A stretch of 64,000 bases of DNA from Bacilli bacterium (GTDB taxonomy: Bacteria > Bacillota_I > Bacilli_A > RF39 > UBA660). The stretch is from contig JAFRQS010000031.1 of assembly GCA_017428495.1 (NCBI GenBank), positions 62,001-126,000 on the forward strand, written 5' to 3'. Positions within the stretch are counted from its first letter, which is position 1; every line of letters starts with the position of its first letter. Both the position numbers and the translations under genes were made by a program. The notes under the pieces are model-generated. The model did no database searches, had not been told where the DNA came from, and saw only the letters and a list, made by a program, of their open reading frames with translations. Shown here one piece after another: positions 21,746 to 45,877 of the stretch.

Positions 21746-22039
21746 ATGAATATGCAAGCAATGATGCAGCAAGCACAAAAATTACAAAGGGATATGCTAA
21801 AAGCAAAGAATGAGGTAGAATCTAAAACTTTTACTTCGACACAATCTTTCGTTACAGTAGAAATGAAAGGTAACAAGGAGGTAATGTCCGTAGTTATAGA
21901 TTCTGATAAATTGGATAAAGAAGATATTGAAATATTACAAGATTTAATATGTCTTGCAGTAAATGAAAATATAAAGAATATTGATAAAGAAATGGAAGCT
22001 AAATTAGGTAAATTTGGTGGGGCAGCAGGTCTTTTCTAA
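21746..22039 (+). CDS. ybaB: YbaB/EbfC nucleoid-associated protein
   Basis: 97 residues. Small dimeric DNA-binding protein. The start MNMQAMMQQAQKLQRDMLKAK and the end GKFGGAAGLF are characteristic, with the central VTVEMKGNKEVMSVVID strand. Starts 3 bp after dnaX and its stop overlaps the recR ATG by one base, matching the dnaX-yaaK-recR operon of Bacilli. Confidence 0.95.
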   Translation: MNMQAMMQQAQKLQRDMLKAKNEVESKTFTSTQSFVTVEMKGNKEVMSVVIDSDKLDKEDIEILQDLICLAVNENIKNIDKEMEAKLGKFGGAAGLF

Positions 22040-22638
22040 TGAATTATCCTAATAGTTTAAATGATTTAATTAATTCACTTAAGAAACTACCTACTATTGG
22101 TGAAAAATCTGCAGAAAGATTAGCATTTGCAATAATGAATATGGATGATGAAGAGGCAAATGAATTTGCTGATTCTATAAAAAATGTTAAATCTAAAATA
22201 AAAAAATGTAGACTATGTGGATACATTACGGAAGATGATGTGTGTACAATATGTAATAATGAATCTAGAGATAATTCATTATTGTGTGTAGTGGAAGATT
22301 CAAAAAATATAATTACATTAGAAAAAATAGGCACATATACAGGTAAATACCATGTATTAGATGGACTTATTTCACCAATTGATGGAAGAGGACCTGATGA
22401 TATTAATATTAAATCTTTAATTGAAAAAGTTAAAGATAATAATATAAAAGAAGTAATAATAGCAATAAGTCCTACTTTAGAAGGTGAAACAACAGCATTA
22501 TATATTTCTAAATTATTAGAAAATTCTGATGTGATTGTTTCAAAAATAGCATATGGAATTCCAATCGGTGCAGATATGGAATATTTAGATCCAATGACAT
22601 TATCAATGGCTTTATCAAATAGAAATAAGATTTCATAG
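22039..22638 (+). CDS. recR: recombination mediator RecR
   Basis: 199 residues, the typical length. Helix-hairpin-helix at residues 1-55 (LKKLPTIGEKSAERLAF), zinc finger CRLCGYITEDDVCTIC (about 57-72), Toprim domain with VVEDSKNIITLEKIG, and the C-terminal Walker-B-like IAYGIPIGADMEYLDPMTL. Forms a ring clamp and acts with RecF and RecO at DNA gaps. Confidence 0.97.
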   Translation: MNYPNSLNDLINSLKKLPTIGEKSAERLAFAIMNMDDEEANEFADSIKNVKSKIKKCRLCGYITEDDVCTICNNESRDNSLLCVVEDSKNIITLEKIGTYTGKYHVLDGLISPIDGRGPDDINIKSLIEKVKDNNIKEVIIAISPTLEGETTALYISKLLENSDVIVSKIAYGIPIGADMEYLDPMTLSMALSNRNKIS

Positions 22639-22869: not shown

Positions 22870-23823
22870 ATGCTTGAAGAATATAAAGATTATGATAAAG
22901 TAATTTATAAGCAATTAGAAAATGCAATAAATAATAATCTTTCTCATGCATATTTATTTGATTTAAATAATAATGTATATGCTGAAAATATGATTATGGC
23001 ATTTGTAAAAGAGATATTATGTAAAAGACATAGTAGCAAAGAAGAGTATGAAAAATGTTCAAAATGTAAAAGAATAGATGATGGTAATTATTCTGAATTG
23101 AAACAAATATATCCAGATGGATTGATGATAAAAAAAGAACAATTAGATGAATTACAAAAAAAATTCAGTACTAAGGCTCTTGAAAGTGAAAAAAAAGTAT
23201 ATATAATACATGATGTTGATAGACTCAATTTGTCTGCAGCAAATAGTTTGTTAAAATTTTTAGAAGAACCAGGAGAAGGAATAATTGCAGTATTACTTAC
23301 TAGTAATTTAAATCAAGTATTAAATACCATTTCATCAAGATGTCAAATATTAAAATTTAATAATAGTAGAGTAGAAGATTTTATAAAATATAATAATATT
23401 AATACTAAAGTAAGTATTTATAAGATATCTTTTTCAATATTCTTAAAGACAAATATTGATGAATATATAGAAAGTTTTGTAAATAATGTAGTTGATTTTT
23501 GGAAGAATTATGAATCTAATGGTAAAAAGATGATAATATATGAAAAACAGTATTTTTTAGATATATTTAAAGAGAAAGAAGAAATATTAAATTTTATAAA
23601 GTGTTCTATATTATTATACAGAGATGTAATTAATTATAAGTTAAATAATAAAATTTTGTATTATAATGATTATGAAAGTGTACTAGAAGAAATTTCTAAT
23701 AAAAATACATTAGATAAATTATTATATAAGTTAAATGTAATACTTGATAAAGAAAAATTAGTAAGTAAGAATGTAAATATAAATATGTTTATAGATGGAC
23801 TTATAATAGACATGGAGGAGTAA
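22870..23823 (+). CDS. holB: DNA polymerase III delta-prime subunit
   Basis: 317 residues. Clamp-loader subunit without a functional P-loop, as usual for delta-prime. Conserved segments: HAYLFDLNNN (the degenerate Walker A region), zinc cysteines CKRHSSKEEYEKCSKC (about 50-65), IIHDVDRLNLSAANSLLKFLEEPGEG, and the SRCQ motif in ISSRCQILKF. The GGAGGAG ribosome site is strong. Next gene starts 1 bp after the stop. Confidence 0.93.
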   Translation: MLEEYKDYDKVIYKQLENAINNNLSHAYLFDLNNNVYAENMIMAFVKEILCKRHSSKEEYEKCSKCKRIDDGNYSELKQIYPDGLMIKKEQLDELQKKFSTKALESEKKVYIIHDVDRLNLSAANSLLKFLEEPGEGIIAVLLTSNLNQVLNTISSRCQILKFNNSRVEDFIKYNNINTKVSIYKISFSIFLKTNIDEYIESFVNNVVDFWKNYESNGKKMIIYEKQYFLDIFKEKEEILNFIKCSILLYRDVINYKLNNKILYYNDYESVLEEISNKNTLDKLLYKLNVILDKEKLVSKNVNINMFIDGLIIDMEE

Positions 23824-43025: not shown

Positions 43026-43031
43026 TAATGT

Positions 43032-43063
43032 AAAGAACACATAAAGTTGTGTTCTTTTTTTTT
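43032..43063 (+). terminator. terminator of rplJL
   Basis: AAAGAACACA / TGTGTTCTTT (43032-43041, 43048-43057) followed by a long T-run. Confidence 0.92.
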
Positions 43064-43115
43064 ATTAAAATGTACTAATTAATTATTATATGTTAAAATT
43101 ATTTTAGGAGGGTAA

Positions 43116-43676
43116 ATGGAAAAAATATTATTAGTAGATATGGATGATGTCATTACTGTTGATGGATTTTTAAATATGTTAAATGAGTATATGGGTACAG
43201 ATTATACATATGATGATTTTCCTACATTTTATATGCAAGATATATTACCTGATAAAGACAAGTTTTTTACTTGGTTTAAAGAAAAGAATATGTATGATTA
43301 TTGTAGGCTTAATGATGATTGTTATGAGGTTTTAGAAAAACTGAATAAACACTATAAATTGTTTATAGCAACATCATATATATTTAGAGAAATACCAAGA
43401 GATAGTGGACATATTCTATATCAAAAATTTGAATATTTAAAAGACAAATTACCTTTTATAAATCCAGAACAATATATTTTTATATCTGATAAATCAGTTT
43501 TAAAAGCATATGCAAGAATTGATGATAGGACTATTAATTTAATAGATGGTGAAAAAAAGGTTTTGTTTAGCGCATATCATAATGGTGATATTAGCGATGA
43601 AGAGTTAAGAAAAAAAGGAATAAAAAGGGCAAGAAATTGGAAAGATGTAGAAAAAATATTATTGGAGGAAATATGA
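43116..43676 (+). CDS. 5'(3')-deoxyribonucleotidase, NT5C type
   Basis: 186 residues. HAD-fold nucleotidase: motif I is LLVDMDDVIT (about 5-14, D-x-D), motif II lies near FIATSY (about 80-85) and the terminal acidic pair is in RIDDRTINL. It dephosphorylates deoxyribonucleotides, most often dUMP/dTMP, in characterised relatives. It overlaps thyA by 4 bp (ATGA) and stands first in a thymidylate cluster, which suggests it adjusts dUMP or dTMP pools. Confidence 0.85.
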   Translation: MEKILLVDMDDVITVDGFLNMLNEYMGTDYTYDDFPTFYMQDILPDKDKFFTWFKEKNMYDYCRLNDDCYEVLEKLNKHYKLFIATSYIFREIPRDSGHILYQKFEYLKDKLPFINPEQYIFISDKSVLKAYARIDDRTINLIDGEKKVLFSAYHNGDISDEELRKKGIKRARNWKDVEKILLEEI

Positions 43677-44572
43677 GTAAGTGGGATGATGATTATATTA
43701 AATTATGTAAGACAATACTAAAAAAGGGAAAAGAAGTAGAAAATAGAACTGGAGTTAATACTATAAAAATACCTAGTTATCATTTGCATTTTGATTTATC
43801 TAAAGAGTTTCCAGTTCTTACCACAAAACAGTTATTTTTTAGACAAGCAATATTAGAAATGTTGTGGATATATCAAGCTTCTAGTAATGATGTTAGATGG
43901 TTGCAAGAAAGAAATGTACATATATGGGATGAATGGGAAATTGATGATAATGGTGATTGGAAAGCTACTCAAAATGTTATGAAAGATGGTAAATACGTTA
44001 AAGAAGAAGTAGTAAAACATTTTGATAAGAAATACGCACATACTATAGGTACCGCATATGGTTATATAGTTGATAAGTTTAATTTAACTAAAAATTTAAT
44101 TGATACAATTAAAAACAATCCAAATGATAGAAGAATGGTAATAACATTATGGCAAAATGATTATTTAGATACAGCAGTATTGCCATCATGTGTATGGAGT
44201 AGTGAATGGGATGTGACAGATGGTCGTTTAAATATGTGGGTTCATCAAAGAAGTTGTGATGTACCTTTGGGATTACCATTTAATATTACTCAATATGCTA
44301 CGTTTTTATCTTTAGTAGCGCAAGTTACTGGTTTAAAACCTGGAACTATTGATTGGAGTATAAAAGATGCACATATATATGTTAATCAAGTAGATGGTAT
44401 AAAAGAACAAATAAAAAGATATGATGAAAAGGGATCTTTACCTGCTCCTAAATTGTGGATTAATCCGGAAGTAACAGATTTCTTTAAATTTGACAATTCT
44501 GCAGAATGTAAAGATATAAAAGTAGTTGATTATGAACATATGGGACCAATTAAATTCCCAATTGCACAGTAG
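43673..44572 (+). CDS. thyA: thymidylate synthase
   Basis: 299 residues from the ATG at 43673 that overlaps the previous stop. Converts dUMP to dTMP with methylene-THF. Motifs: ENRTGVNT, LTTKQLFFRQAILEMLW, catalytic Cys173 in LPSCVWSSEWDV, QRSCDVPLGLPFNITQYA and KDAHIYVNQ. The usual P-C-H around the nucleophile is S-C-V here; I recall this variant in other Firmicutes enzymes. Gene 3' neighbour encodes the folate and kinase steps that go with it. Confidence 0.95.
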   Translation: MSKWDDDYIKLCKTILKKGKEVENRTGVNTIKIPSYHLHFDLSKEFPVLTTKQLFFRQAILEMLWIYQASSNDVRWLQERNVHIWDEWEIDDNGDWKATQNVMKDGKYVKEEVVKHFDKKYAHTIGTAYGYIVDKFNLTKNLIDTIKNNPNDRRMVITLWQNDYLDTAVLPSCVWSSEWDVTDGRLNMWVHQRSCDVPLGLPFNITQYATFLSLVAQVTGLKPGTIDWSIKDAHIYVNQVDGIKEQIKRYDEKGSLPAPKLWINPEVTDFFKFDNSAECKDIKVVDYEHMGPIKFPIAQ

Positions 44573-44579
44573 GTGATTT

Positions 44580-45731
44580 ATGAATAATTTAAGTTTAATA
44601 GTTGCAATAGGAAAAAATAATGAATTGGGTAAGGATAATGATTTGATATGGCATCTAAAAGAAGATATGAAGTTTTTTAAAAAGATGACTAATAATAAAA
44701 CTATAATAATGGGTAGAAAATGTTTTGAATCTTTACCTGGGCTATTACCTAATAGGAAACATATAATCTTATCTACAAATAAGAATTATAAAGTAGATGG
44801 TGCATTAGTAATGAATAATATGGAAGATGTACTTAATTATATAAAGAGTACTAATGAAGAATGCTTTATAATTGGCGGTGGTAAAATATATGAAATGTTT
44901 TTACCATATTGTGATAAATTATATATTACTGAGATAGATGATGAAAAAGAAGCTGATGTATATTTTCCAAAATTTGATAAGTCATTATATGATATGGAAA
45001 TACTTGATGAAATAGAAGAAAAAGTTAAATATAAATTTATATTATATAAGAAGAAAAGAACTGGTAAGTTAATTGTAATTGAAGGAACAGATTGTTCTGG
45101 AAAACAAACACAAGCAGAGAAATTAGTAGAACATTTAAATAAAGATGGAATAGATGCAATTAAATTTGGATTTCCAAATTATGATTCACCTACTGGTAAA
45201 ATAGTAGGTGGGCCTTATTTAGGAAAATCTTACATATGTGATGGTTGGTTTCCAGAAGGTGCACCTAATGTATCTGGTAAAGTGGCTAGTTTATATTATG
45301 CTGCTGATAGACTATATAATGTTGATATTATAAATAAATCATTAGAAGAAGGTAAGATAGTTATATTAGATAGGTATGTTGAATCTAATATGGCATTTCA
45401 AGGTTCTAAATTTGAAACAAAAGAAAAAAGAAAAGAAATGTTTGAATGGTTAGAAACTCTCGAATATAAATTACTAGAATTACCTAGACCGGATAAAGTA
45501 ATATTTTTATATATGCCATATGAATATGCTTGTGAATTGAAAAAATGTAGAGAAGAAAAACCTGATCAAAATGAATCTAGTGAGGAATTATTAAGAAGAG
45601 CAGAATCTACATATCTAGAACTTGCTGATATGTATAATTATAGTAAGATAGATTGTGTAGATAATGATAGAATAAAGACAATAGATGAAATTCATAAAGA
45701 TGTTTATGATGAAGTATTAAAGAGTAATTGA
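44580..45731 (+). CDS. bifunctional dihydrofolate reductase-thymidylate kinase fusion
   Basis: 383 residues in one uninterrupted frame. Residues 1-160 are DHFR (LSLIVAIGKNNELGKDNDLIWHLKEDMKFFKKMT, IIMGRKCFESLP, FIIGGGKIYEMFLPYCDKLYITEI). After KKKRTG, residues 163-383 are dTMP kinase (P-loop EGTDCSGKQTQ at 168-178, DRYVESNMAFQGS at 264-276). DHFR regenerates THF from the DHF made by ThyA; the kinase makes dTDP from its dTMP. Both active sites look intact. In B. subtilis folA (dfrA) and tmk are separate, and tmk lies near dnaX-holB, where it is missing here. Confidence 0.93.
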   Translation: MNNLSLIVAIGKNNELGKDNDLIWHLKEDMKFFKKMTNNKTIIMGRKCFESLPGLLPNRKHIILSTNKNYKVDGALVMNNMEDVLNYIKSTNEECFIIGGGKIYEMFLPYCDKLYITEIDDEKEADVYFPKFDKSLYDMEILDEIEEKVKYKFILYKKKRTGKLIVIEGTDCSGKQTQAEKLVEHLNKDGIDAIKFGFPNYDSPTGKIVGGPYLGKSYICDGWFPEGAPNVSGKVASLYYAADRLYNVDIINKSLEEGKIVILDRYVESNMAFQGSKFETKEKRKEMFEWLETLEYKLLELPRPDKVIFLYMPYEYACELKKCREEKPDQNESSEELLRRAESTYLELADMYNYSKIDCVDNDRIKTIDEIHKDVYDEVLKSN

Positions 45732-45743
45732 TTACTCTTTTTT
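45721..45743 (+). terminator. terminator of the thymidylate cluster
   Basis: AGAGTAAT / ATTACTCT (45721-45728, 45731-45738) with a T-run; the stop codon is in the loop. Confidence 0.9.
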
Positions 45744-45783
45744 GTTTTGTCAAGTAAAATATTTGAATTTTACAATATTTTTA

Positions 45784-45812
45784 TTGACTTTACTAGCATT
45801 TTAGCGTAAAAT
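45784..45812 (+). promoter_or_regulatory. sigma-A promoter of rpoBC
   Basis: TTGACT (45784-45789), 17 bp, TAAAAT (45807-45812); the start codon is 65 bp further. Confidence 0.8.
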
Positions 45813-45877
45813 TATAAATTGGTACTATGTCGCTTTGTAGGCTTAGTTCTTTGAAAAATTATATTTGGGGTGAAAAG

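Follow-up and report, generated by a model that had tools for sequence, protein, structure and literature searches.

Within the analysed window (a stretch of 64,000 nucleotides), a single ATG-started frame of 383 codons plus a TGA stop, at 44580..45731 on the forward strand, appears to join folA and tmk, the genes for dihydrofolate reductase (DHFR) and thymidylate kinase (TMK). The locus raises the question of whether this folA::tmk gene is real or an artefact of sequencing, and, if it is real, how often such a fusion arose and what the joined enzymes would do.

One reading frame with two complete domains

The N-terminal DHFR_1 domain (residues 4–157, forward strand 44589..45050) was defined by Pfam, by its active-site residues and by matches to solved structures; it scored 178.4 bits against PF00186 over profile positions 2-158/159 (Pfam cut-off 25). 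It is followed by a linker of about four residues (159–162, KRTG; 45054..45065, forward), placed from an AlphaFold2 model and free of start codons in a scan, and by a dTMP kinase domain (residues 163–383; 45066..45728, forward) that resembles the M. tuberculosis and human enzymes, not that of E. coli. The kinase half matched Thymidylate_kin (PF02223) over residues 167–356 with 82.7 bits (Pfam cut-off 27), and the NCBIfam dTMP kinase equivalog TIGR00041 gave 86.0 bits (cut-off 83.25). With both families above their cut-offs, the first-pass annotation, which had read complete DHFR motifs followed by a complete dTMP kinase in one 383-codon frame, was borne out. The sequence of the second half includes the P-loop GTDCSGKQT (residues 169–177; 45084..45110, forward) and the DRY motif (residues 264–266, corresponding to M. 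tuberculosis D94-R95-Y96; 45369..45377, forward).

The gene thyA, on the same strand at 43673..44572, encodes 299 aa from the ATG at 43673, which was taken in place of a mechanically listed TTG start at 43637. Its end at 44572 agrees with the 7 bp spacing to the fusion that had been noted before. No Thymidylat_synt domain was detected by Pfam in the fused protein, ThyA being encoded separately at 43673–44572. A terminator-like stem-loop followed by a T-rich tract overlaps the stop codon of the fusion (45719..45740, forward; RNA fold −7.6 kcal/mol, z = −2.34), and is absent from a separate terminator scan that requires more GC pairs.

A gene resembling 5'(3')-deoxyribonucleotidase (NT5C; PF06941, 53.4 bits) was observed at 43116–43676 on the forward strand. 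Because this gene overlaps thyA at the latter's start, the thymidylate operon may also include a possible dNMP phosphatase. The NT5C-thyA-folA::tmk unit (43026–45826) lies between rplL and rpoB, within the usual rplKAJL-rpoBC block, and is flanked by terminator-like hairpins at 43032–43057 and 45719–45740. The neighbours of the thyA-fusion pair in genome G223 are unlike those in the window.

Residues were mapped against the sequences of E. coli DHFR and M. tuberculosis TMK. Counterparts of E. coli DHFR W22, D27, F31, T35, R57, GG95-96, Y100 and T113 are all kept, the active site of the fusion including W24, D29, F33, T37, R59, G99-G100 and T117. Residues D9, K13, Y39, R74, R95 and N100 of M. 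tuberculosis TMK correspond to D171, K175, Y201, R244, R265 and N270, and F70 corresponds to Y240. The position of Y103 is occupied by F in the fusion and by H in most relatives, and the basic residues of the LID differ from those of M. tuberculosis TMK. The functions of the M. tuberculosis residues used in this mapping are described in PMC3619541. Judged from these residues, both active sites are predicted to be intact.

The AlphaFold2 model (64 rows; mean pLDDT 96.0, pTM 0.82) contains two confident domains, with block means of 94–95 across the linker. The final DHFR strand spans residues 150–158 and the initial TMK strand residues 163–169, with confident residues between them. The DHFR half aligned with solved DHFRs at a TMt of about 0.9, and the nearest solved structures to the TMK half were the human and M. 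tuberculosis enzymes. Both activities in one chain were not found among the PDB matches listed, the best of which were single-enzyme DHFR or TMK.

An error joining two genes would be in keeping with the relatives, in which this place is occupied by two separate genes. At the junction, however, no ATG, GTG or TTG occurs in any frame from 56 nt upstream to 10 nt downstream, and in frame no further start codon follows until residue 235, past the P-loop; a single base error therefore cannot split the frame into two genes. The ribosome-binding and start signals of the relatives' tmk are lost at the junction. The same fused frame was found in an independently assembled genome (L122, isolate RUG12915), with 91% amino-acid identity over all 383 residues, and fused frames occur separately in two other lineages. 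A sequencing or assembly artefact, to which we would assign a negligible probability, is ruled out by these observations.

Between the window and L122, dN was 0.051 and dS 0.617 (NG86), a ratio of about 0.08. The values were 0.051/0.556 for the DHFR half and 0.048/0.628 for the TMK half, and since dN is low relative to dS in each, purifying selection acts on both halves of the single frame. A second fused lineage (L125, L183 and L127) is also constrained, with an overall dN/dS of about 0.10–0.16. The frame at 44580–45731 is thus a real DHFR-TMK fusion, conserved and under purifying selection.

Separate genes in relatives and three origins of the fusion

The window belongs to a metagenome-assembled genome (MAG) of 1.235 Mb in 33 contigs, 93% complete. 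A profile search of the whole assembly returned a single match to each of PF02223 and PF00186, both within the fused frame, which is accordingly the only DHFR and the only dTMP kinase found in this 93% complete MAG. The first-pass annotation had suggested that the fusion may be the only dTMP kinase, and had named a frameshift or complete separate tmk and folA genes elsewhere as what would speak against its reading; the frameshift is ruled out, and the search of the 93% complete genome for further tmk or folA genes gave none. That no other PF02223 protein was found supports the predicted dTMP specificity of the TMK half. A thymidine kinase is encoded apart from the fusion, on contig C1 of the genome. 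In each of five other genomes with a fusion, the fused gene was likewise the only strong PF02223 match, and an extra match of 27.5 bits, at the cut-off, was present in G631.

In Firmicutes, tmk often lies between recR and holB. In the window, tmk is absent between recR (22039–22638) and holB (22870–23823), where just a short reading frame is present, so the missing separate tmk near dnaX-holB had been correctly noted earlier. Its absence is not due to the fusion, because in relatives where a tmk of this type stands as its own gene, it is usually part of a thyA-folA-tmk operon.

The relatives were sampled as 288 genomes of the same order as the window genome. The fusion query matched 242 of the 288 (E ≤ 0.001). 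A DHFR_1 match was observed in just 104 of the 288, most of which are more than 90% complete, so many genomes of the order seem to be without this family. Separate but neighbouring folA and tmk genes were found at 82 distinct loci, with most gaps between −23 and +9 bp, and thyA lies directly ahead of folA in 123 of 149 DHFR loci and immediately upstream of the fusion at every fused locus. In the relatives, the sequence encoding the Tyr-Lys-Arg-Arg C terminus of DHFR often contains AGGAGG, a potential ribosome-binding signal for tmk.

Since the two genes abut or overlap, one small deletion can join them. At the junction of the second fused lineage, the unfused sequence TTATATGAAAGGAAATAGATATGCGCGGGAAAATT stands against the fused TTATATGAAAAGAAGAAGGGTAAAATA; relative to the nearest unfused relatives, a small deletion took the folA stop and the tmk start. 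Two separate genes are kept in G084, a genome of the same genus as that of the window.

Variants of the operon were also seen. At four loci (L028, L031, L053 and L058) an apparent UMP kinase gene lies between folA and tmk, giving the order thyA-folA-pyrH-tmk; the inserted gene, read by eye from its sequence, is presumably pyrH. In G006 (L022:1092–1535) and G012 (L026, complementary strand 2162–2605), divergent DHFR-like proteins of 146–147 aa (about 30% identity, 41–44 bits) adjoin tmk, and a normal DHFR is encoded on another contig.

Among the order sample and relatives, six distinct fused sequences were found in six uncultured species, corresponding to 6 of the 88 loci at which folA and tmk are joined or neighbouring. 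They fall into lineage a (the window genome and L122), lineage b (G223, also L127; L125; and L183) and lineage c (G099, also L130). Strongly supported branches of the TMK tree force three changes, and the DHFR tree likewise forces three; holding the fused rows as one clade cost 121 log-likelihood units (AU p = 0.0004). A single ancient fusion is ruled out by these results, and folA and tmk became fused three times, each in a different lineage.

The window's DHFR and ThyA lie closest to those of L175, L189, L192 and L193, of which L189, L192 and L193 are without tmk beside folA, while its closest TMK sequences belong to a different group. From these placements, the tmk half may have entered the operon of this lineage separately. 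Directly 3' of the fusion in G099 (L065:4312–4764), a 150-aa frame has a partial, weak DHFR_1 match (34.7 bits, positions 54–142) and is possibly a degenerate second DHFR.

Outside the order, no fused frame was present among the best-scoring matches listed from samples of 395 genomes of the class and 392 of the phylum, the latter searched at E ≤ 1e-30. Among phage and plasmid records, none covered 80% of the query (among the 5000 plasmid records listed), and scans of IMG/VR gave DHFR alone or TMK alone and no fused frame.

Several candidates for further fusions were rejected. A seemingly full-length match in G168 consists of two genes, and for long open frames (458–675 aa) the two checked, in G145 and G035, have separate TMKs. 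In a 635-kb phage (LR745206; L202:1998–3033) and in an IncFIB plasmid (L203:486–3121; thyA nearby), DHFR overlaps a separate downstream P-loop protein. The viral protein V5L671 (446 aa) and the TK-TMK of white spot syndrome virus (WSSV) gave structure matches over both domains at an rmsd of 17–18 Å, so their arrangements are not equivalent to that of the fusion.

Predicted function and competing explanations

ThyA converts dUMP and CH2-THF to dTMP and DHF, of which DHFR takes DHF and TMK takes dTMP. The fusion is very probably a bifunctional dihydrofolate reductase-thymidylate kinase, as predicted from its domains. ThyA, encoded just upstream, would make dTMP and DHF from dUMP and CH2-THF; using NADPH, the N-terminal half of the fusion would reduce DHF to THF, while the C-terminal half would use ATP to phosphorylate dTMP to dTDP. 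One polypeptide would in this way use up both products of ThyA, with both halves presumably active within one chain. The benefit of the fusion, if any, would be a fixed 1:1 dosage and the co-localised removal of the ThyA products. The earlier proposal that ThyA and the fusion together carry dUMP to dTDP and recycle DHF is retained as a prediction, but its suggestion of channelling does not hold between the fused halves: the DHFR product, THF, is not a TMK substrate, and no intermediate is shared. A hand-over of DHF and dTMP from ThyA to the fusion is possible.

The rarity of the fusion, at 6 of 88 loci, indicates that it confers no general advantage. It may equally be that the fused enzyme is active yet selectively near-neutral, chance deletions having joined abutting folA and tmk genes and been tolerated with no functional coupling; we give this about even odds. 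Abutting or overlapping genes make a one-step fusion easy, the low frequency among joined or neighbouring loci would be explained, and DHFR and TMK have no common intermediate. Neutrality sits less well with three independent fixations, with retention across at least two species in lineage a and three in lineage b, and with the fact that no re-splitting was found. The repeated fixation and the retention over several species speak in favour of a selective reading.

A stronger proposal is that ThyA and DHFR-TMK form a complex with local hand-over of DHF and dTMP, for which the fusion is the scaffold. The two enzymes united are precisely those that use ThyA's products, thyA stands immediately upstream in all fused loci, and DHFR-TS fusions offer a precedent (PMC4866688), but gene order and fusion frequency are explicable without a complex, and we regard such a scaffold as unlikely. 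The fuller version, in which selection has repeatedly favoured DHFR-TMK as a bifunctional enzyme docked on ThyA, where it clears both products at the site of synthesis, is similarly doubtful. Translation of the whole chain followed by cleavage into DHFR and TMK appears very improbable: the linker is short and basic (KKKRTGK), as a cleaved segment might be, but it is predicted by the model to be ordered, with about four residues between strands, and no protease site is known here.

Relation to known systems and significance

Related uncultured Bacilli have a thyA-folA-tmk operon with the gene order and sequence families of the window, except that folA and tmk are separate and abutting there and fused in the window. 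Compared with stand-alone DHFR (FolA), the complete domain is present in both (42% identical to B. subtilis DHFR 8uvz, with a TMt of 0.92), but only the fusion carries a C-terminal kinase. The P-loop, the DRY motif and the dTMP-contacting residues of the stand-alone human and M. tuberculosis dTMP kinases are kept in the TMK half, which differs from them in that its own start is missing, DHFR precedes it and the LID region is not the same.

In the DHFR-TS of protists and plants, as in the window, an N-terminal DHFR is linked to a second enzyme of the thymidylate pathway; in T. brucei, DHFR is fused to thymidylate synthase (PMC4866688). The second domain of DHFR-TS is TS, whereas that of the window fusion is the kinase acting after TS, with ThyA encoded by a separate neighbouring gene. 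The domains fused here share no intermediate, and the protein is bacterial and was born by the fusion of operon genes. In the literature searched, TMK was otherwise found fused just in the TK-TMK chimera of WSSV, for which TMK activity could not be demonstrated, according to a citing passage in PMC3496565. As described there, a thymidylate kinase domain is joined to another thymidine-pathway enzyme, as in the window, but the chimera is viral and its partner is thymidine kinase, whereas the partner in the window is DHFR_1 (Pfam) and no TK domain is present.

A DHFR-TMK fusion was not found in open-licence full texts, which agrees with the earlier remark that no well-described enzyme of this type was known; an unpublished database entry with the same architecture is quite possible. 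In DHFR-TMK two known enzymes are combined in a new way, for which no earlier description was found.

For annotation, if the protein were named 'dihydrofolate reductase' alone, the one dTMP kinase found for the cell would go unnoticed. If the docking on ThyA considered above were true, DHFR-TMK would be a bacterial counterpart of the protist DHFR-TS, made from the two enzymes acting after TS. With three origins in six uncultured species, evolution has repeated the fusion of a domain combination for which no earlier description was found. The fusion offers a natural test of how joining the consumers of the thymidylate synthase products affects flux, product inhibition and the response to antifolates, with the unfused sister genes as matched controls.
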